Assembly: GCA_018667335.1 (NCBI GenBank)
Contig: JABIVD010000044.1
Location: forward strand, 1 to 64,000
Reading direction: 5' to 3'
Source: Rhodospirillaceae bacterium
GTDB taxonomy: Bacteria > Pseudomonadota > Alphaproteobacteria > UBA6615
DNA length: 64,000 nt
The notes beneath the pieces are model-generated. The model did no database searches, was not told where the DNA came from, and saw nothing but the letters and a program-made list of their open reading frames with translations. Positions 26,787-37,837 of this stretch are shown here, piece by piece; the stretch's first letter is position 1, and the number at the start of each line of letters is the position of its first letter. Both the position numbers and the translations under genes were made by a program.

Positions 26787-27440
26787 TTATTGAGCGGCGG
26801 CACCGGCCGAATGGCCGGAAGCATCGTCAGGTTTATCGTCGAACCCACCCGCAGTCAAAACGAAGCGGGCAACGTCCTCGAGGCCGAGCCCCGTCTTCAG
26901 ATTCGTGAACAGGAACGGGCGTTCTCCGCGCATGCGGCGTGAATCCCTGTCCATCACATCAAGATCCGCACCCACATAAGGCGCCAGGTCGATCTTGTTG
27001 ATCACCAGAAGATCGGATCGTGTGATCCCCGGGCCACCCTTGCGGGGAATCTTATCACCGGCCGAGACGTCGATCACATAGATCGTGATATCGGCAAGTT
27101 CAGGCGAGAAAGTAGCGGCCAGATTGTCTCCACCGGATTCGATGAGCACGATGTCCAGCGCCGGGAAACGCGTCACCATCTGAGCAATCGCCGCCAGATT
27201 GATCGAGGCATCCTCGCGGATCGCCGTATGGGGACAGCCGCCGGTTTCAACGCCCATGATCCGTTCCGGCGGCAGCGCACCCGAGCGGGTCAGGAACTGC
27301 GCATCCTCTTCGGTGTAAATGTCGTTCGTAATGGCCGCGATGTCGAAATCGTCCCGCAACTTCTTGCAGAGCGCATCCATGAGCGCGGTTTTTCCCGTGC
27401 CGACGGGGCCGCCGATACCGACGCGAAGGGGTTTGGTCAT
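26787..27440 (-). CDS. ureG: Urease accessory GTPase UreG
   Basis: 217 residues. Walker [11 protein letters not shown] near residue 9, the nickel-binding CPH motif ([13 protein letters not shown]) and the [13 protein letters not shown] base-recognition region are all present. UreG uses GTP to drive nickel insertion into apo-urease with UreD, UreF and UreE. The start overlaps the ureF stop as ATGA (27437-27440), indicating coupled translation. Confidence 0.98.
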
Positions 27441-28156
27441 GAGCGAAATAACCTCGAATATTGGGTTTCATGAATGGCGGAGGCCCAGTCGACCATGATG
27501 GCCGCCGAACCCATGTCGTCAACCGGGCGATCAAGCGCCGCGCCGGCAGCTGCGACAACCACAGGCTCGAGCGCCGCGAGGACATGCAGCCCGTCGCTTT
27601 GCCCCAGCGGAATGGCGCGCACGCCCGCCGACACGATGTTCGCCGCAAAGGCGTGCAGATAGGCCTCAAGCGCAGGCAGTTCCGCAATTCCATGATCCGC
27701 GGCCGTGACGCCGACCGCGACCGGATAGGCTATCTCGCGCGCCGTTTCGGCGGCGATGTCGCTCAGACGCCCGACCCAGGGGCTGGACCAGTGACGGGCT
27801 GCAGCGCTGACGAACGCCGCGCCCTGGCTCAGGGTCTCCAGCCCCAATTCCCGCGTCGATCGCATGGCGTCGCCCCGTTCCAGCGCCCAGGCCAGGCCCT
27901 CTGTATCGTCGCTGATAACTGCGTCATAGGCCGCGCGGAACAGGGCCGCATCGACCCGCCCGGCGCCAGACGAAACAATCGTCTCGACCCAGGACGACAG
28001 ATCTTCGCGGTTCTCCAGCATGCCGGCCTCGACTGCGGATTCCAGGCCGTGGGAATAGCTGAACGCCCCGACCGGAAAGGCGGGCGAGAGCCAGGTCATC
28101 AGGCGCTGCAGGCGTACGCCGGATAATTCCGTTCCCGGGGACATGTCAGTGGTCAT
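27437..28156 (-). CDS. ureF: Urease accessory protein UreF
   Basis: 239 residues from the ATG at 28156, eight bases after AAGGA; a second ATG at 28144 is possible. All-helical UreF with the family start [17 protein letters not shown] and the C-terminal conserved end. It acts as the scaffold and GTPase-gating partner of UreG and UreD in the activation complex. It overlaps ureE by 11 bases and ureG by four. Confidence 0.96.
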
Positions 28157-28643
28157 GGCTGTGTCCTTGTGCGTATTCATGCCCATAGCCATGTCCGGCA
28201 CCCTCGTCATAGGCACCGGGTTCGGGGTTGAAGGACGCAGCCTTGGCCTCGACTTCCGCACCAAGCCGAACCAGCATCTGCGCGATCACATGATCGGCGC
28301 GGATACGCAGCCCGCCGTCTTCGAGCACCTGGGTCGGGAGATGACGATTGCCGATATGCCAGGCCATGCGCGCCGTGTCGCGCGGATCGTCGCAGCGCAC
28401 ATCGAGCACATCCTCGTCCGCCGCGCGGACATGCACGATGCCACCCGTGTCCAGACGCAAGCCGTCGCCGTCGCCCATGCGCGTGGCGTCGTCCAGATCG
28501 AGCAGAAAGGCCTCACCGGCATCGTCGACAAGCCGCACCCGGCGGCGGTGGCGGTCATCGAACGCCAGCGTCACCGTCGCAACGGCGTCGGACGCTGGCC
28601 AGGCGCCGGCCTCCAGAACTTGTGTGGCGCGGCGGAGGGTCAA
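28146..28643 (-). CDS. ureE: Urease nickel metallochaperone UreE
   Basis: 165 residues. N-terminal peptide-binding domain and C-terminal metal-binding domain ([22 protein letters not shown]), ending in a His-rich tail ([16 protein letters not shown]) that binds nickel. The likely start is a TTG overlapping the ureC stop (TTGA), with no separate ribosome site, so translation probably depends on ureC. It supplies nickel to the UreDFG complex. Confidence 0.95.
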
Positions 28644-30349
28644 AACAGGAAATAGCGCTGGGCCATCGCCAGCTCCTCCGCCGGCTCGCAGGTCAATAGT
28701 TCGCCGTCTGCGCGCACCTCATAGGTCTCCGGATCGACCTCCATGACCGGAGTTGCATCGTTCAGGATCATGTCCTTTTTCGTGACCGAACGCGTGCCGG
28801 TGACCGCCAGAAGTTCGCGCGACAGGCCGAGTTGTGCGGCCATGTCCGTAGCCGCGGCAGCCGCCGACACGAACGTCACCGCACCGGCCGTTTGCGACGC
28901 GCCGAAGCTGCCGAACATAGGCCGGTAGTGGACCGGTTGCGGTGTCGGGATCGAGGCGTTGGGATCACCCATCGCGGCCCCGGCGATAGTTCCCGCCTTG
29001 ATGATGATGTCGGGCTTCACCCCGAAGAACATGGGTTTCCACAGCACCAGATCGGCCAGTTTGCCAACTTCGACCGAGCCCACATGATCGGCGATCCCGT
29101 GACAAAGCGCCGGGTTGATCGTGTATTTTGCGATGTAGCGGCGCACGCGCAGATTGTCGTTGTCGCCGGTCTCACCGGGCAGCGCCCCGCGCTGGCGCTT
29201 CATTTTGTCGGCCGTCTGCCAGGTCCGGATAATTACCTCACCGACCCGGCCCATCGCCTGGCTGTCGGATGCGATCATCGAGAACGCGCCGAGGTCATGG
29301 AGAATATCCTCGGCCGCGATCGTCTCGCGCCGGATCCGGCTTTCGGCGAACGCCACATCCTCGGGAATGCGTTGATCCAGATGATGGCAGACCATCAGCA
29401 TATCGAGATGTTCGTCGACCGTGTTGACGGTGTAGGGTCGTGTCGGATTGGTCGAGGACGGCAATACATTTTCCTCACCACACAGGCGAATGATATCGGG
29501 CGCGTGGCCGCCCCCCGCGCCCTCCGTGTGAAACGCATGGATCGTCCGCCCCTTGAAGGCGGCGATGGTGTCTTCGACGAAACCGGACTCGTTGAGTGTG
29601 TCGGTGTGGATCGCCACCTGCACGTCCATCTCTTCGGCCACGGTCAGGCAGGCATCGATCGCCGCCGGGGTCGTGCCCCAATCCTCATGCAGCTTGAGGC
29701 CGCACGCGCCGCCCTCGACCTGTTCTATCAACGCCGCCGGCAGGGTCGCATTGCCCTTGCCGAAGAAACCGAGATTGACCGGAAACCCTTCCGCAGCCTG
29801 AAGCATGCGACCCAGATGCCAGGGCCCGGGCGTGCAGGTGGTGGCGTTGGTGCCCTCGGCCGGGCCCGTCCCGCCACCCAGCATCGTGGTGACGCCGGAA
29901 TACATGGCTTCTTCGATCTGCTGCGGGCTGATCCAGTGGATATGGGCGTCAATGGCGCCCGCCGTGACGATACGGCCCTCGCCCGCGATCACTTCCGTGC
30001 CTGGCCCGATGATGATATCGATCCCCGGCTGCACGTCGGGATTCCCCGCCTTGCCAACGCCGACGATGCGGCCGGCGCGAATACCGATATCAGCCTTCAC
30101 AATCCCCCAGTGATCGACGATCAGCGCGTTGGTGATGACCGTATCCACCGCACCTTCGGCGCGGCTGGCCTGAGATTGTCCCATGCCGTCGCGGATGACC
30201 TTGCCACCGCCAAATTTGACCTCTTCGCCGTAGATCGTGTGGTCGCGCTCGACCTCGATGACCAACTCCGTGTCGGCGAGCCGCACCCGGTCACCCACCG
30301 TGGGACCGAACATGGACGCGTAGTCGGCATGATTTATGGAGTACGCCAT
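28640..30349 (-). CDS. ureC: Urease alpha subunit (catalytic)
   Basis: 569 residues, normal length. Nickel and catalytic residues are all recognisable: HIH (DAHIHWISP), the carbamylated Lys (GLKLHEDWG), His of [10 protein letters not shown], His of [14 protein letters not shown], the flap Cys-His (MVCHHLD) and the metal Asp (ASDSQAMG). It hydrolyses urea to ammonia and carbamate in the cytoplasm. Start at 30349 lies three bases after the ureB stop. Confidence 0.99.
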
Positions 30350-30352
30350 CGT

Positions 30353-30664
30353 CTAGCCCTCCAGCGCGCCGTTGACGCGGCCGTTGAAGCCAAACACCCG
30401 GCCTGACCCGGCGTAGCGGACCAGGGCGACTTCACGGGTCTGGCCCGGCTCGAACCGCACGGCGGTGCCGGCCGGAATATCGAGCCGGAACCCACGGGCC
30501 GCAGCTCGGTCGAATTCCAGTGCGCCGTTGGTCTCGTGGAAGTGGAAATGGGAGCCGATCTGGATCGGACGGTCGCCGCTGTTGGCCACCGACAGGGCCA
30601 GTGTTTCGCGGCCCTCGTTCAGCAGAATTTCGCCGTCGGCGGGGAAGAATTCACCTGGGATCAT
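30353..30664 (-). CDS. ureB: Urease beta subunit
   Basis: 103 residues from the ATG at 30664 (MIPGEFF). Conserved core [10 protein letters not shown] and the C-terminal [11 protein letters not shown] identify UreB, a structural partner of UreC in the (UreABC)3 assembly. Separate ureA and ureB genes are the common proteobacterial layout, unlike the fused UreA of Helicobacter. It lies eight bases after ureA. Confidence 0.97.
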
Positions 30665-30671
30665 GTCTGCC

Positions 30672-30974
30672 TCACCGGATCGGATTGTGGACGGTGACCA
30701 GCTTGGTCCCATCGGGAAATGTTGCCTCGACCTGGACGTCGTGGATCATCTCCGCGATCCCCTCCATCACATCCGCGCGGGCCAAAACCTCGCCCCCCGC
30801 GCTCATCAGATCGGCAACCGAGCGCCCGTCACGGGCGCCCTCGACGACGTAATCGGAGATCAGCGCGATCGCCTCGGGATAGTTGAGCTTCACGCCGCGC
30901 GCCATACGTTTGCGCGCCACCTCGGCGGCGAGCGCGACGAGAAGCTTGTCCTTCTCTCTCGGTGTCAGGTGCAT
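30672..30974 (-). CDS. ureA: Urease gamma subunit
   Basis: 100 residues, exact family length. Conserved [12 protein letters not shown] start, [13 protein letters not shown] and the end TVHNPIR are unmistakable. A strong TAGGAGGA site stands six bases before the ATG, the best ribosome site in the urease block, which may help set the level of structural subunits. The ureD stop is 11 bases upstream. Confidence 0.98.
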
Positions 30975-30985
30975 CGTCTATCCTC

Positions 30986-31810
30986 CTAAATCGCCCACAG
31001 GCGCGGCATCGCCGCCGGTAAATCCGCCACGTGATGCCGAAATTCAGCCCAAAACTTCCCATATGCGTCGCGCAGACGCTGGGCATCACGGTCGAGCCAG
31101 CGCACGATCAGCACATCGCCGACACAGGTCGCACCGACGCGCAGTCCGGTCGGATCCAGTCCTTCGGGCAGAAGCTCGCGGGCAAGCGGCAGGGCGGATG
31201 CCGCGTCGTCGCTCACATAGATGATGCTCGCGAACGCGCGCGCGCCGTTCAGGCCCGCATTGGCCGCGAGGGTCACCGGGAGGTCGTCGTCCAGATGCAC
31301 CGCATCCGCCCAGACCAGCCGATCGTCACGCCGGACATCCCACGCCTCGTGGATGAGCCCGCCGGTGACGCTCTCACCCATGGCGGTGCGCCCGAGAACA
31401 ATGATCTCCCCGGCCAGAACGCGCGCGCCGGTCGCGACCTCGAGCACGGTTCGCCGCCGCAGGCGTGCGGTATCGAAGATGATGGTTTCCTGGGGCAGCC
31501 ATTCGAGCCAGCTGCCGGGTTCGGCGATGAGGGACATGTCGATGCACACGTCCTTGCCCGTCGAGCGGTATATTTTTTCAGCCGCCTGTCCGACGATCCG
31601 CGCCACCGCCCCGGTGCCACACCTGATCACGATCGAAATTTGGTCCCCGCCGACGAGCCCGCCGGACGTCGTCACCAGCGCGCCGGTTTCGGGCTCTCCC
31701 GGGCCGGAATTCGGGAACAAAATACGTAACGGATCGCTTTGATACAGATGCGCCAGACGGGTACAACCGCCAGCGTCAACGAACTCGATTTCTGCCCGCC
31801 CCGTTGCCAT
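30986..31810 (-). CDS. ureD: Urease accessory protein UreD
   Basis: 274 residues with family segments SGGLVGGDQ, TQSAEKIY-type (GQAAEKIYRS), WLPQETIIFD and GRTAMGE. UreD binds apo-urease first and recruits UreF and UreG. It is the first gene of the urease part and follows urtE by 20 bases, so transporter and enzyme appear to be one transcription unit. Confidence 0.96.
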   Translation of the reverse strand: MATGRAEIEFVDAGGCTRLAHLYQSDPLRILFPNSGPGEPETGALVTTSGGLVGGDQISIVIRCGTGAVARIVGQAAEKIYRSTGKDVCIDMSLIAEPGSWLEWLPQETIIFDTARLRRRTVLEVATGARVLAGEIIVLGRTAMGESVTGGLIHEAWDVRRDDRLVWADAVHLDDDLPVTLAANAGLNGARAFASIIYVSDDAASALPLARELLPEGLDPTGLRVGATCVGDVLIVRWLDRDAQRLRDAYGKFWAEFRHHVADLPAAMPRLWAI

Positions 31811-31830: not shown

Positions 31831-32526
31831 TTAGACCGTAAGGTGCCGACGAATCTCGGATTCGCGCAAATCACCGATCGGCCCGGACAAGACAATCTCG
31901 CCCCTGTCCATCACCACCACGTCGTCTGCAAGGTCGCGCGCAAACTCGTAATATTGCTCGACCAGCAGAATCGCCATGTCACCGCTGCCGGCAAGCAGCC
32001 GTATAACCGCCTCGATATCCTTGATGATCGACGGCTGGATGCCCTCGGTGGGCTCATCGAGAACCAGCAGTTTCGGCTGGGTCACGAGCGCCCGGCCGAT
32101 CGCCAGCTGCTGCTGCTGACCGCCGGACAGATCTCCGCCGCGGCGCTGCAGCATGTCCGACAGGACGGGAAACAATTCGAACACCTGGTCGGGAATGCGC
32201 GCCTCGCTGCGCGGCAAACAGGCAAAACCCGTCATCAGATTCTCCTCGACGCTGAGCCGGGGAAACACGTCGCGCCCCTGGGGCACATAGGCAATGCCTC
32301 GACGGGCCCGCGCGAAGGGCGGCAGACGAGAGATATTCTCACCGTCCCACGTAACCGACCCGCTGCGGATGGGCGTATGCCCGGTCAGGCCACGCAGGAG
32401 CGACGTCTTGCCGACGCCATTGCGCCCGAGCAGACAGGTGATCTTGCCGCGGGTGGCAGAGACATGGGCGCCGCGCAGAATATGGCTGGCACCGTAGTAG
32501 AGATTGATGTCGGAGGCTTCGAGCAT
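31831..32526 (-). CDS. urtE: Urea ABC transporter ATP-binding protein UrtE
   Basis: 231 residues from the ATG at 32526. Walker A GRNGVGKTS, ABC signature LSGGQQQ and Walker B LLVLDEPTEGIQP are present; the EGIQPSII segment is typical of UrtE and LivF. It powers urea uptake together with UrtD. It follows the urtD stop by two bases. Confidence 0.95.
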   Translation of the reverse strand: MLEASDINLYYGASHILRGAHVSATRGKITCLLGRNGVGKTSLLRGLTGHTPIRSGSVTWDGENISRLPPFARARRGIAYVPQGRDVFPRLSVEENLMTGFACLPRSEARIPDQVFELFPVLSDMLQRRGGDLSGGQQQQLAIGRALVTQPKLLVLDEPTEGIQPSIIKDIEAVIRLLAGSGDMAILLVEQYYEFARDLADDVVVMDRGEIVLSGPIGDLRESEIRRHLTV

Positions 32527-32528
32527 GG

Positions 32529-33308
32529 TCAACGACCCAGATAGACTTCAATAACGCGCGGATCCGACTGGACGGATTCCATCGGTCCCTCCGCAAGGAC
32601 GCTGCCCTCATGCAGCACCGAGACCGTGCAATCGAGATTTCGTACAAACTTCATATCGTGCTCGACGACGACCAGTGAATGGTCCTTTGCGATCTCCATT
32701 AGCAGCGTCACGGTCTGTTCGGTCTCGGCGTCGCTCATGCCCGCCACAGGCTCATCGAGCAGCATCAGCTCGGGCTCCTGCGCCAGCAACATGCCGATCT
32801 CGAGCCATTGCTTCTGGCCGTGACTGAGATCACCGGCGAGGTCTGCGCTACGCTCGGTCAGCCGGATGGTTTCCAACGTGGCCTCGATCCGGGTGAGTTG
32901 TTCACCACGAATACGCGCAAACAGAGTTTCGGCGATCGAACGCTTGGTCTTCTGGGCCAGATAGATATTCTCGAAGACTGTCAGGCTCTCGAACACCGTC
33001 GGCTTCTGGAACTTCCGGCCGATCCCCAGATTGGCAATATCGGTCTCATCAAGATGCGCGAGGTTCACATCGTCGGCGAACAGCACCCGACCCGTATCCG
33101 GGCGGGTTTTGCCGGTTACCACATCCATCATCGTGGTCTTGCCCGCCCCGTTGGGGCCGATGATCGCGCGCATCTCACCGCGCCGGATGATCAGGTTCAG
33201 GCTATTGAGTGCCTTGAACCCGTCGAAGCTGACCGACACGCCCTCGAGATAGAGGATCGACGGTTCACGCGCGGTCACGGCGTCTGGTCCAGAAGCAGGT
33301 TCAGGCAT
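32529..33308 (-). CDS. urtD: Urea ABC transporter ATP-binding protein UrtD
   Basis: 259 residues from the ATG at 33308, which overlaps the urtC stop by eight bases. Walker A GPNGAGKTT, signature LSHGQKQWLEIG and Walker B LMLLDEPVAGM; the LSHGQKQWLEIGM form and VAGMSDAET are characteristic of UrtD. An upstream TTG would add 11 residues inside urtC and is less likely. Confidence 0.95.
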   Translation of the reverse strand: MPEPASGPDAVTAREPSILYLEGVSVSFDGFKALNSLNLIIRRGEMRAIIGPNGAGKTTMMDVVTGKTRPDTGRVLFADDVNLAHLDETDIANLGIGRKFQKPTVFESLTVFENIYLAQKTKRSIAETLFARIRGEQLTRIEATLETIRLTERSADLAGDLSHGQKQWLEIGMLLAQEPELMLLDEPVAGMSDAETEQTVTLLMEIAKDHSLVVVEHDMKFVRNLDCTVSVLHEGSVLAEGPMESVQSDPRVIEVYLGR

Positions 33309-34443
33309 CGCCACGTCGCAGCCTCCGTCCAATCGCTTCAATCAATTCGCCCGAGCGCAGGAATTTGTAGACCCCGACAATCCCCTGGGGCATGACGAGA
33401 GTCACGAGAATGAACAGCGAGCCGAGGAAGAACAGCCAGATTTCCGGCGCCGCGGCGGTGAAATATGTCCGCGCGCCGTTGATGGCGAACGCCCCGATGA
33501 TCGCGCCAAACAACGTGCCGCGCCCTCCGACGGCGACCCAGATTGCCATTTCGATGGATTTGGCGGGCGCGAACTCACCCGGATTGATGATGCCGACCTG
33601 GGGCACATAGAGCGCGCCCGCAAGCCCGGCGATCATCGCCGACAATGTGAAAACGAAAAGCTTTGCATTGGTGACCGAGTAGCCAAGAAACCGGACCCGG
33701 TTCTCCGCGTCGCGCACCGCGATCAACAACCGGCCAAGCTTCGAGCTCACCACCGTACGGCAGATCAAATAGACGATCAGAAGCGACACCGCCGAGGCGA
33801 TATAGAGCCCGACCTTGGTCGTGTCGCGCGACAGTTCAAATCCCAGTATGTCCTTGAAGTCCGTCAGCCCGTTGTTGCCGCCGAACCCCATCTCGTTGCG
33901 GAAGAAGGCGAGCATGAAGGCGAAGACCATCGCCTGGCTGATAATCGAGAAATAGACACCCGTGATCCGCGAGCGGAACGCAAGCCAGCCGAAGACAAAC
34001 GCCAGGGCACCCGGCACGGCCAGCACCATCAGGGCAGCGAACCAGAACTGGTCGAAGCCGAGCCAGTACCAGGGGACCGAATCCCAGTTCAGGAACACCA
34101 TGAAATCCGGCAGGTCCGGGTTACCGTAGACACTCCGCTCGCCGATCTGGCGCATCATATACATGCCCATGGCGTAGCCGCCGAGGCCGAAGAATGCCCC
34201 GTGGCCAAGGCTCAGTATACCCGCGTAACCCCAGATCAAGTCGAGCGACAGGGCGAGAATCGCAAATGCCAGATACTTACCCAGCGTGGTCACCCAGAAG
34301 GTCGGGATGTGAAACAGCGATCCTTCTGGCACCGCCAGATTGAGGATCGGCACCACGAAGATCGCGATCGCCGCGAGCACGAGGATAGCGGCCCAACCGC
34401 GTTTGCTTTCCATGGCCACAAGCCGTGATGAGATGGGTCCCAT
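33301..34443 (-). CDS. urtC: Urea ABC transporter permease UrtC
   Basis: 380 residues with about ten membrane helices and the LivM-type segments LDLIWGYAGILSLGHGAFF and the cytoplasmic loop RDAENRVRFLGYS. A GGAGGA site lies seven bases before the ATG. It forms the membrane channel with UrtB. It is 15 bases downstream of urtB. Confidence 0.96.
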   Translation of the reverse strand: MGPISSRLVAMESKRGWAAILVLAAIAIFVVPILNLAVPEGSLFHIPTFWVTTLGKYLAFAILALSLDLIWGYAGILSLGHGAFFGLGGYAMGMYMMRQIGERSVYGNPDLPDFMVFLNWDSVPWYWLGFDQFWFAALMVLAVPGALAFVFGWLAFRSRITGVYFSIISQAMVFAFMLAFFRNEMGFGGNNGLTDFKDILGFELSRDTTKVGLYIASAVSLLIVYLICRTVVSSKLGRLLIAVRDAENRVRFLGYSVTNAKLFVFTLSAMIAGLAGALYVPQVGIINPGEFAPAKSIEMAIWVAVGGRGTLFGAIIGAFAINGARTYFTAAAPEIWLFFLGSLFILVTLVMPQGIVGVYKFLRSGELIEAIGRRLRRGDA

Positions 34444-34458
34444 AATCCGTTCCTCCGA

Positions 34459-36168
34459 TCAGGAATCGGCCGCGCGCCCTTTGAGGGCGAACAGACCGCG
34501 TGGGCGTCTCTGGATGAACAGGATGATGATCACGAGCACGACCACCTTGCCGAGGATCGCGCCGGAGACCGGTTCGAGGAACTTGTTGACGATGCCGAGG
34601 CTGAAGGCGCCGACGATCGTACCCCACAGACTTCCCACGCCGCCGAAGACGACGACCATGAAGCTGTCGACGACGAAGTTCTGACCCAGGTTGGGGCTGA
34701 CATTCGAGATCTGGCTCAACGCCACGCCGGCCACACCGGCGATGCCGGATCCCAGGGCAAAGGTCAGCGCATCCACCTGGCCGGTACGAATGCCCATCGC
34801 CGACGCCATGCCCCGATTCTGGGTCACGGCCCGCATCTGCAGCCCGAACCGGCTATATCGGATAAAGGCCGCCAGCGCCGCCACGACCATGAGGCAGAAG
34901 ATGATGATGTAGATACGGCTGACGGTCACGGACACGCCGCCGCCGAACGCGACCGCGCCGGAGATCCAGTCGGGGTTTGCAACCTCTTGGTTGTTCGCAC
35001 CGAACACCGTGCGCACGAGCTGCTGCAGGATCAGGCTGACCCCCCAGGTGGCCAGCAGGGTCTCCAGCGGCCGGCCGTACAGGAAGCGGATGCAGCCGCG
35101 TTCGATCAGTACGCCGAAGGCCGCGGCGACGAAGAACGCCGCAGGAATGGACACCAGCACATACATCCCGAAAAGCTCGGGCGGCATCGTGGAGCGGAAG
35201 ATCTCCTGCACCACAAACGTGGTGTAGGCCCCAAGCATGATCATCTCGCCATGGGCCATGTTGATCACACCCATGACGCCAAACGTAATCGCCAGGCCGA
35301 TCGCGGCCAGCAGCAGGACCGAGCCAAGGCTGAGCCCAAAGATCAGGTTCTCCACCAGGCCGAAGAGCGCGAGACGGTCGTCGATATCGTCGACCGCCTC
35401 CCGCAGCGCCGCACGCACCTCGGCATCGGGCTCGGTAAATTCACCATTATTTTTGAGCAGACGCTGTTCGAGCGCCGATTTGATATTCGGATCGCTGCGG
35501 TCGGCCAGCGTCGCCACGGCCGCCAGGCGCAGGGCGCGATCGTCCGATGCGAGTTCGAGCACGGCGATGCCTGACTCAAGTGTCGCGCGAATTTTCGAAA
35601 CCGTCTCGCGGTCACGCGCGCGTTTCAGCAGGCCCAGGGCGTCTTCGGTGGGGCTGGCAATGACGTTACGCGCCGCGTCGAGCCGGTCGTCGGCATTCGG
35701 GCTGAACAGGGCAAGCTGCCCGAGAACGCCCCGGATCTGGCCGCGCAGCTTGTTATTGGCGATGATCTTCTTGATTTCGCCGCTGGCCGCGGTGCCGGCG
35801 GTCGCACCAGTTACGGGACTGGTCAGGCTGAATCCATCGCCGTCGCGATCACCGATGATGACGGCCTTGTCTGCCTTGCGACGATAGAGGCGCCCGTCGG
35901 CAAACGCCTGAAGAACGACAATGGCGCGCTCGTCACCCAGCACACCCAGTGCGTCGATGGCCTTGGCCTTGTCGGAAAACTTGCGAGCGTCCAGCGCCTG
36001 GACCGCTGCGGCGAAGGGATCATCTGCCGTCTGTGTGAACTGCGGTGCGGACTGTGCGGCGGCGGGCAGCGTCACCGCTGCCATGAGCGCCAGAAACAGC
36101 AACGCACTGCCAAGAAAGGCAATGTAGCCGCGTATACGCACTGCGCACGTTGAATGGCCCGTAGCCAT
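34459..36168 (-). CDS. urtB: Urea ABC transporter permease UrtB with N-terminal extension
   Basis: 569 residues. A signal sequence (ALMAAVTLPAAAQS) leads a helical domain of about 230 residues with HEAT-like repeats (DDRALRLAAVATLADRSD), then a LivH-type permease of about 290 residues (SLGSVLLLAAIGLAITFGVMG... FGGVGSLWGT). Such an exported N-terminal domain is usual for UrtB but absent from amino-acid LivH proteins and confirms the urea assignment. It lies 101 bases after urtA, a gap that holds a stem-loop. Confidence 0.95.
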   Translation of the reverse strand: MATGHSTCAVRIRGYIAFLGSALLFLALMAAVTLPAAAQSAPQFTQTADDPFAAAVQALDARKFSDKAKAIDALGVLGDERAIVVLQAFADGRLYRRKADKAVIIGDRDGDGFSLTSPVTGATAGTAASGEIKKIIANNKLRGQIRGVLGQLALFSPNADDRLDAARNVIASPTEDALGLLKRARDRETVSKIRATLESGIAVLELASDDRALRLAAVATLADRSDPNIKSALEQRLLKNNGEFTEPDAEVRAALREAVDDIDDRLALFGLVENLIFGLSLGSVLLLAAIGLAITFGVMGVINMAHGEMIMLGAYTTFVVQEIFRSTMPPELFGMYVLVSIPAAFFVAAAFGVLIERGCIRFLYGRPLETLLATWGVSLILQQLVRTVFGANNQEVANPDWISGAVAFGGGVSVTVSRIYIIIFCLMVVAALAAFIRYSRFGLQMRAVTQNRGMASAMGIRTGQVDALTFALGSGIAGVAGVALSQISNVSPNLGQNFVVDSFMVVVFGGVGSLWGTIVGAFSLGIVNKFLEPVSGAILGKVVVLVIIILFIQRRPRGLFALKGRAADS

Positions 36169-36269: not shown

Positions 36270-37553
36270 TTAGTTTGACAGGTACTTGGGCTTCTCGCAG
36301 TTGCCGCAGATCCAGGGGTAGGTCCAGTCGGCGGTCAGCTTGGCGCTTTCGGGAATGAAGTCGCTCCAGGCATCACCCACGACCACTCCTTCGGTTTCCC
36401 ATACGGTGGCAAACTGGCCGTCATCCTGAATTTCGCCGATGAGAACCGGCTTCGAGAGATGATGGTTGGTGTTCATCACCGCGACGCCACCGGTCAGGTT
36501 CGGTACTTCCTGGCCATACATGGCCTGGCGAACCGCATCGATGTTCGTGGTGCCGGCCTGCTCAACCGCCTGGGTCCACATGTTGAAGCCGATATAGTGG
36601 GCTTCCATCGGGTCGTTGAAGACGCGCTTGTCGCTGCCGATAAACGCATGCCACTTCGAGATCAGCGCGGCATTTTCGGGTGCATCGACACTCATGAAGT
36701 AGTTCCACGCCGCGAGATGGCCGACGAGCGGTGCGGTGTCGATACCCGCAAGCTCTTCCTCACCGACCGAGAAGGCGATGACCGGAATGTCTTCGGCCTT
36801 GATCCCCTGGTTGGCGAGTTCCTTATAGAACGGCACATTCGCGTCACCATTGATCGTCGAGACCACGGCGGTCTTCTTGCCGCCCGCGGCGAACTTCTTG
36901 ATGTCCGACACGATGGTCTGCCAATCGGAATGACCGAACGGCGTGTAGTTGATCATGATGTCCTCGGCCGGAACGCCCTTGGCCTTGAGGAATGCTTCGA
37001 GGATCTTGTTGGTCGTGCGGGGATACACATAGTCGGTTCCCGCGAGGACCCAACGCTTGGCCTCGCCACCATCTTCGCTCATCAGATACTCGACGGCGGG
37101 GATGGCCTGCTGGTTCGGCGCGGCGCCCGTGTAGAAGATATTGCGCGAGGATTCCTCACCCTCATACTGGACCGGATAGAAGAGCATACCGTTCAGCTCT
37201 TCAAAGACCGGCAGCACCGACTTGCGCGACACCGAGGTCCAGTTGCCGAACACGACATCGACCTTGTGCTGCTCGATCAGCTCACGCGCCTTCTCGGCAA
37301 ACAGCGGCCAGTCGGACGCCGGATCGACGACAACCGCCTCGATCTGCTTCCCGAGCAATCCGCCCTTCTTGTTCTGCTCGTCGATCAGAAACAGCATGAC
37401 GTCCTTCAGCGCGGTTTCGCTGATCGCCATGGTTCCGGACAGGGAGTGAAGGATCCCCACCTTGATGGTGTCGGCCGCCTGTGCCGACGCGCTCATCGCG
37501 AGCGATCCAGCGAGCACGCTCGCCGCTGCGATGGTTTTTAGGCTTTTGAACAT
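36270..37553 (-). CDS. urtA: Urea ABC transporter substrate-binding protein UrtA
   Basis: 427 residues from the ATG at 37553 with GGAGG upstream; an upstream TTG would add 16 basic residues. Signal peptide MFKSLKTIAAASVLAGSL...ASAQA, then the type I periplasmic fold with VGILHSLSGTMAISE, WTSVSRKSVLPVFE and FYPVQYEGEE, all typical of UrtA. It captures urea in the periplasm for UrtBCDE. As the first gene of the block it is directly controlled by the sigma-54 promoter upstream. Confidence 0.97.
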   Translation of the reverse strand: MFKSLKTIAAASVLAGSLAMSASAQAADTIKVGILHSLSGTMAISETALKDVMLFLIDEQNKKGGLLGKQIEAVVVDPASDWPLFAEKARELIEQHKVDVVFGNWTSVSRKSVLPVFEELNGMLFYPVQYEGEESSRNIFYTGAAPNQQAIPAVEYLMSEDGGEAKRWVLAGTDYVYPRTTNKILEAFLKAKGVPAEDIMINYTPFGHSDWQTIVSDIKKFAAGGKKTAVVSTINGDANVPFYKELANQGIKAEDIPVIAFSVGEEELAGIDTAPLVGHLAAWNYFMSVDAPENAALISKWHAFIGSDKRVFNDPMEAHYIGFNMWTQAVEQAGTTNIDAVRQAMYGQEVPNLTGGVAVMNTNHHLSKPVLIGEIQDDGQFATVWETEGVVVGDAWSDFIPESAKLTADWTYPWICGNCEKPKYLSN

Positions 37554-37596
37554 TCTCCGCCTCCGGGCTTTATGGTTTTTGCGATGCAAGATAATT

Positions 37597-37612
37597 TGCA
37601 AAGCGCGTGCCA
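37597..37612 (-). promoter_or_regulatory. Sigma-54 (RpoN) promoter of the urt-ure operon
   Basis: On the minus strand the sequence is TGGCACG-N4-TTGCA, a full match to the -24/-12 consensus with correct spacing. Transcription would start near 37586, giving a 5' leader of about 33 bases before urtA. Sigma-54 promoters need an enhancer-binding activator; for urea uptake genes this is usually NtrC under nitrogen limitation. No clear NtrC dyad (GCAC-N5-TGGTGC type) was found, but an ATCACT-N21-AGTGAT dyad is centred near 37702, about 116 bases upstream. The rest of the 284-base gap up to 37837 holds nothing else recognised. Confidence 0.85.
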
Positions 37613-37837
37613 GACGGAGGAAATCTGGTTAGTTGCTGTAATCATTGTGATATTTTCCGGAAGAATGGAAAATGGCACTTTATCGATCACTCTTTCTGCC
37701 TATGATCTGGGCAGTGATAATTAGTTGCCTATTTTTTGTACATAATACGCGGCGATGCCAGTAACCGGCCGGTGTCCATGGTTGCCCGGAGCCGGATTTC
37801 CGGGCACGCTTTGATTCATCGAACGGAGTGATTACCC

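Follow-up and report, generated by a model that had tools for sequence, protein, structure and literature searches.

A predicted NtrC/sigma-54 promoter with tandem NtrC-type dyads upstream of a twelve-gene urt-ure cluster

The urea uptake and urease genes

The window, namely the whole 64-kb stretch of DNA analysed here, carries on one strand a complete set of genes for urea uptake and hydrolysis, urtABCDE and ureDABCEFG, as assigned by protein family models:

36270..37553, minus strand: urtA, urea ABC transporter substrate-binding protein (TIGR03407, 573 bits against a cut-off of 493)
34459..36168, minus strand: urtB, permease (TIGR03409, above cut-off)
33301..34443, minus strand: urtC, permease (TIGR03408, above cut-off)
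32529..33341, minus strand: urtD, ATP-binding protein, whose true start may be later (TIGR03411, above cut-off)
31831..32532, minus strand: urtE, ATP-binding protein (TIGR03410, above cut-off)
30986..31810, minus strand: ureD, urease accessory protein (PF01774)
30672..30974, minus strand: ureA, urease gamma subunit (PF00547)
30353..30712, minus strand: ureB, urease beta subunit (PF00699); among alternative starts, the true one may be 30664
28640..30349, minus strand: ureC, urease alpha subunit (TIGR01792, above cut-off)
28146..28643, minus strand: ureE, urease accessory protein (PF05194 and PF02814)
27437..28264, minus strand: ureF, urease accessory protein (PF01730); among alternative starts, the true one is probably near 28144
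26787..27440, minus strand: ureG, urease accessory GTPase (TIGR00101, above cut-off)

These assignments bear out an earlier, sequence-only reading of this DNA, which had described twelve genes of urea uptake and hydrolysis following one another with almost no gaps: the intergenic distances from urtA to ureG range from -119 to +20 bases, with the sole exception of the 101 bases between urtA and urtB. The same order of the twelve genes is found in four related genomes, and urtA through ureG are probably transcribed as one unit. The neighbouring genes were searched for a link to urea metabolism, and none was found.

The sigma-54 element before urtA

A sequence with a ten-base distance between GG and GC, in the TGGCACG-N4-TTGCW form of the -24/-12 element, stands before urtA, 44 bases upstream of its ATG:

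37597..37612, minus strand: sigma-54 (-24/-12) promoter TGGCACG-CGCT-TTGCA, assigned by full consensus match and conservation
37586, minus strand: predicted transcription start, placed by geometry only, 12 bases past the -12 GC
37553-37551, minus strand: ATG of urtA, preceded by the ribosome site GGAGGCGGAG

The sequence-only reading had proposed here a full match, TGGCACG-N4-TTGCA at 37612-37597, and both letters and position are correct; the absence of rpoN would have undermined that proposal, and a check of the genome found the gene, encoding a protein of 491 aa (PF04552 at 220 bits). The exact sequence TGGCACGNNNNTTGCW occurs once in the 64-kb window, at the urtA promoter, and exact -24/-12 matches in the whole 3.55 Mb genome number three, against one for the reversed-pattern control. 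Therefore, the bare match is modest evidence, and the case for the urtA promoter is made by position and conservation, beyond the count alone.

For conservation, a UrtA search of the genome collection yielded 80 related loci and 24 same-family genomes were searched in addition, for a total of 93 distinct loci at which UrtA matched strongly, the window being counted once. Scanning of the 400 bases upstream of urtA found the element exactly in 23 of the 93 loci, with at most one mismatch in 48 and with at most two in 54, counts that do not represent independent events because the loci share descent. The controls were empty when one mismatch was allowed; allowing two brought one hit in the reversed sequence and four on the opposite strand. 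Most of the conserved elements lie 39-77 bases upstream of urtA, and six further urtA loci carry a variant -12 letter, TGGCA-N6-TTG; in about half of the related loci, no sigma-54 site was found within 400 bp of urtA. The three exact genomic matches against one in the control would fit a match arisen by chance, with a sigma-70 promoter driving the operon. However, no sigma-70-like promoter is among the sites listed near urtA, and the element keeps its position and sequence in relatives while the upstream controls are empty at up to one mismatch, and we regard a chance match as hardly credible, the least probable of the explanations weighed here.

Tandem NtrC-type dyads before urtA and glnK-amtB

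Aligned upstream regions of urtA relatives gave a 17-bp dyad with the family consensus TGNNYAANNNTTRNNCA, and two copies, 29 bp apart, lie upstream of the sigma-54 element in the window, their centres being numbered from the predicted transcription start:

37697..37713, minus strand: proximal NtrC-type dyad TGCCCAGATCATAGGCA, centred at about -119 (family alignment and PWM, 13.0 bits)
37726..37742, minus strand: distal NtrC-type dyad TGTACAAAAAATAGGCA, centred at about -148 (PWM, 19.6 bits)

The sequence-only reading had seen no clear copy of the known NtrC site, a view that is not supported, since these two tandem NtrC-type dyads occupy 37742-37726 and 37713-37697. The activator site suggested in its place, the dyad ATCACT-N21-AGTGAT, does exist at 37686-37718 and surrounds the proximal dyad, but the letters that compose it are not conserved, the exact pattern occurring in none of the other related urtA loci fetched; with its centre at -116 against -119 for the proximal dyad, it indicated the correct location but not the correct sequence.

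The two dyads form the only pair with a spacing of 27-31 bp in the 64-kb window, and a PWM whose training left the window out ranks the distal dyad first and the proximal one second among all 64-kb positions, although its training loci had been chosen using the dyad consensus. When pairs were counted at a spacing of 27-32 bp with at most two mismatches per dyad, 32 of the 45 urtA loci that have a sigma-54 element contained one, shuffled sequence giving 0.10 on average and never more than 2, and so did 4 of the 46 loci lacking the element; among loci outside the derivation of the consensus, the corresponding counts were 21/33 and 3/45. The spacings of the conserved pairs are mostly 28 or 29, and the most conserved positions are the outer TG/CA letters at 17-bp spacing. 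Between the activator sites and the promoter, a candidate IHF site with at most one mismatch occurs in 18 of 50 loci versus 3.5 in shuffles, but the candidate in the window has two mismatches and is unconvincing.

The proximal dyad matches exactly, and the distal one with one letter off, the pattern TGC-N11-GCA, which is the footprint-mapped NtrC site of Sinorhizobium meliloti (PMC10746234). NtrX was also considered as the protein that binds the dyads in place of NtrC, since YAA-N3-TTR, at the core of the family consensus, overlaps the NtrX motif CAA-N2-5-TTG (PMC9223101). However, the outer TG/CA letters, where conservation is highest, belong to the NtrC motif, and CAA-N2-5-TTG is found in neither dyad of the window; binding by NtrX is accordingly judged extremely improbable.

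The operon glnK-amtB is a classical target of NtrC. In the genome, the zero-mismatch consensus has two occurrences, and the one that precedes glnK-amtB ties the dyad to a core NtrC target. There, the perfect dyad comes second in a pair spaced 29 bp, after which stands the variant element TGGCACG-N4-TTGTA, and a dyad pair in matching arrangement is also present before the glnK orthologues of the family; before the P-II paralogues (69-71% identity), no dyad pair was found. The glutamine synthetase operon glnB-glnA, with a single dyad that deviates at one position and a poor -24/-12 candidate that deviates at three, was not counted as evidence. The other zero-mismatch site, TGCGCAATAATTGCGCA at L128:1501-1517, is located some 70 bases ahead of the ATG that opens a 432-aa ORF whose translation resembles a purine/uracil permease, and it has neither a partner dyad nor a sigma-54 element. 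In one relative (L136), the glnK upstream region holds four dyads instead of two, arranged as two overlapping pairs, the members of each pair being 13 bp apart.

On the far side of the dyads, a gene of the GFA family (PF04828; 37838-38281) is divergent from urtA, as it is in two same-genus relatives, and because the two genes have the intergenic region in common, NtrC could affect both. Between the distal dyad and this gene lies a G+C-rich inverted repeat, TGCCCGGAGCCGGATTTCCGGGCA (37783-37806), and the nearest relatives have a similar GCCCGGA..TCCGGG at this place; it may be the leader hairpin of the divergent gene.

Regulators, proposed control and known systems

Acting on sigma-54 requires the GAFTGA loop of the activator. 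Besides RpoN, the genome encodes NtrB and NtrC, the latter with an intact GAFTGA loop, and also NtrX, which is without the loop and so could not open a sigma-54 promoter by the known mechanism; for the missing loop and the motif mismatch, NtrX was rejected as the activator. The loop is also carried by a DctD-like regulator on the same contig and by a truncated sigma-54 activator gene at a contig start (L003/L008, genome contig 44, 1-1454), and either could in principle be the enhancer-binding protein that serves a real urtA promoter. Nevertheless, the tandem dyads also precede glnK-amtB and match the published NtrC motif (PMC10746234), and the DctD-like gene adjoins genes read from their translations as a DctB-like kinase and a TRAP-type transporter binding protein, neighbours that suggest dicarboxylate control. 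Another activator of this kind is therefore very unlikely, if a little less so than NtrX as the binder. On contig 44, two -24/-12 matches lie directly downstream of the truncated activator gene, on the other strand.

The NtrC of Caulobacter and Rhodobacterales is without GAFTGA and is reported to be active at sigma-70 promoters (PMC10274813). Comparison of 30 genomes showed G(A/S)FTGA in the NtrC of all 12 that have the sigma-54 element before urtA, while in two (L031 and L042) the closest NtrC is without the loop and urtA is without the element, L042 keeping several dyads nonetheless; these are the only two negative genomes, and the best NtrC match of L031 is just 48% identical. In 16 other genomes the element is missing though the best NtrC match keeps the loop, and therefore loop loss is not the usual reason for the absence of the element. 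The direction of the comparison agrees with the NtrC model, two cases being few. A broader proposal is that the tandem NtrC-type pair with its nearly fixed 28-29 bp has been conserved as a regulatory unit in many urtA and glnK promoters of Alphaproteobacteria, and that the urtA sigma-54 element was lost where NtrC lost GAFTGA, so that NtrC sites outlive the sigma factor; we advance it tentatively, as rather less likely to be right than wrong.

Based on these findings, we propose, with high confidence, that the urtABCDE-ureDABCEFG operon is under ordinary NtrC/sigma-54 control under nitrogen limitation. First, when nitrogen is short, NtrB would phosphorylate NtrC, which would bind the tandem dyads at about -148 and -119 and oligomerise. 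Upon looping of the DNA, NtrC would be brought to the sigma-54 polymerase held at the -24/-12 element, and its GAFTGA loop, together with ATP hydrolysis, would open the promoter. The urt-ure genes are thus predicted to be induced on nitrogen limitation, with the outcome that urea would be imported and split to ammonium.

Control of urea genes by NtrC and sigma-54 has already been reported or proposed elsewhere, and the window is a well-supported further case. In Sinorhizobium meliloti, the 17-bp dyad is alike, to the point of an exact match of the proximal window site, but there a single site represses a small-RNA promoter, whereas in the window a tandem pair lies upstream of a sigma-54 promoter (PMC10746234). 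Tandem NtrC sites were also sought in Rhodobacter capsulatus, without result. In Paraburkholderia, mutation of rpoN affects urea use, and the urea transporter has an RpoN site in front of it (PMC5979394). The PurtA promoter of Pseudomonas putida is induced when nitrate replaces ammonium and has been called similar to NtrC-activated sigma-54 promoters; however, ureD is PP_2842 and urtA is PP_4841 (PMC8050072), and with locus numbers so distant urt and ure apparently do not form one cluster there. Herbaspirillum seropedicae has a sigma-54 promoter before urtA, ure adjoining urt, expression under nitrogen deprivation and a suggested Ntr control, although this organism belongs to another bacterial group and activator sites are not described in the portion of the source consulted (PMC3093359). 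Comparative-genomic reconstruction of NtrC regulons, a prediction over reference genomes, assigned urease and urtABCDEF to NtrC in Rhizobiales, Rhodobacterales, Alteromonadales and Oceanospirillales, the family of the window not being named for urea genes in the portion of that source consulted (PMC5343134). Therefore, the general view is unchanged, as NtrC/sigma-54 control of urea transport was already reported, while this work adds, for urea use in this bacterial family, a regulatory assignment that is firm and open to testing, and a fixed-spacing motif that could serve to list NtrC targets in such genomes.
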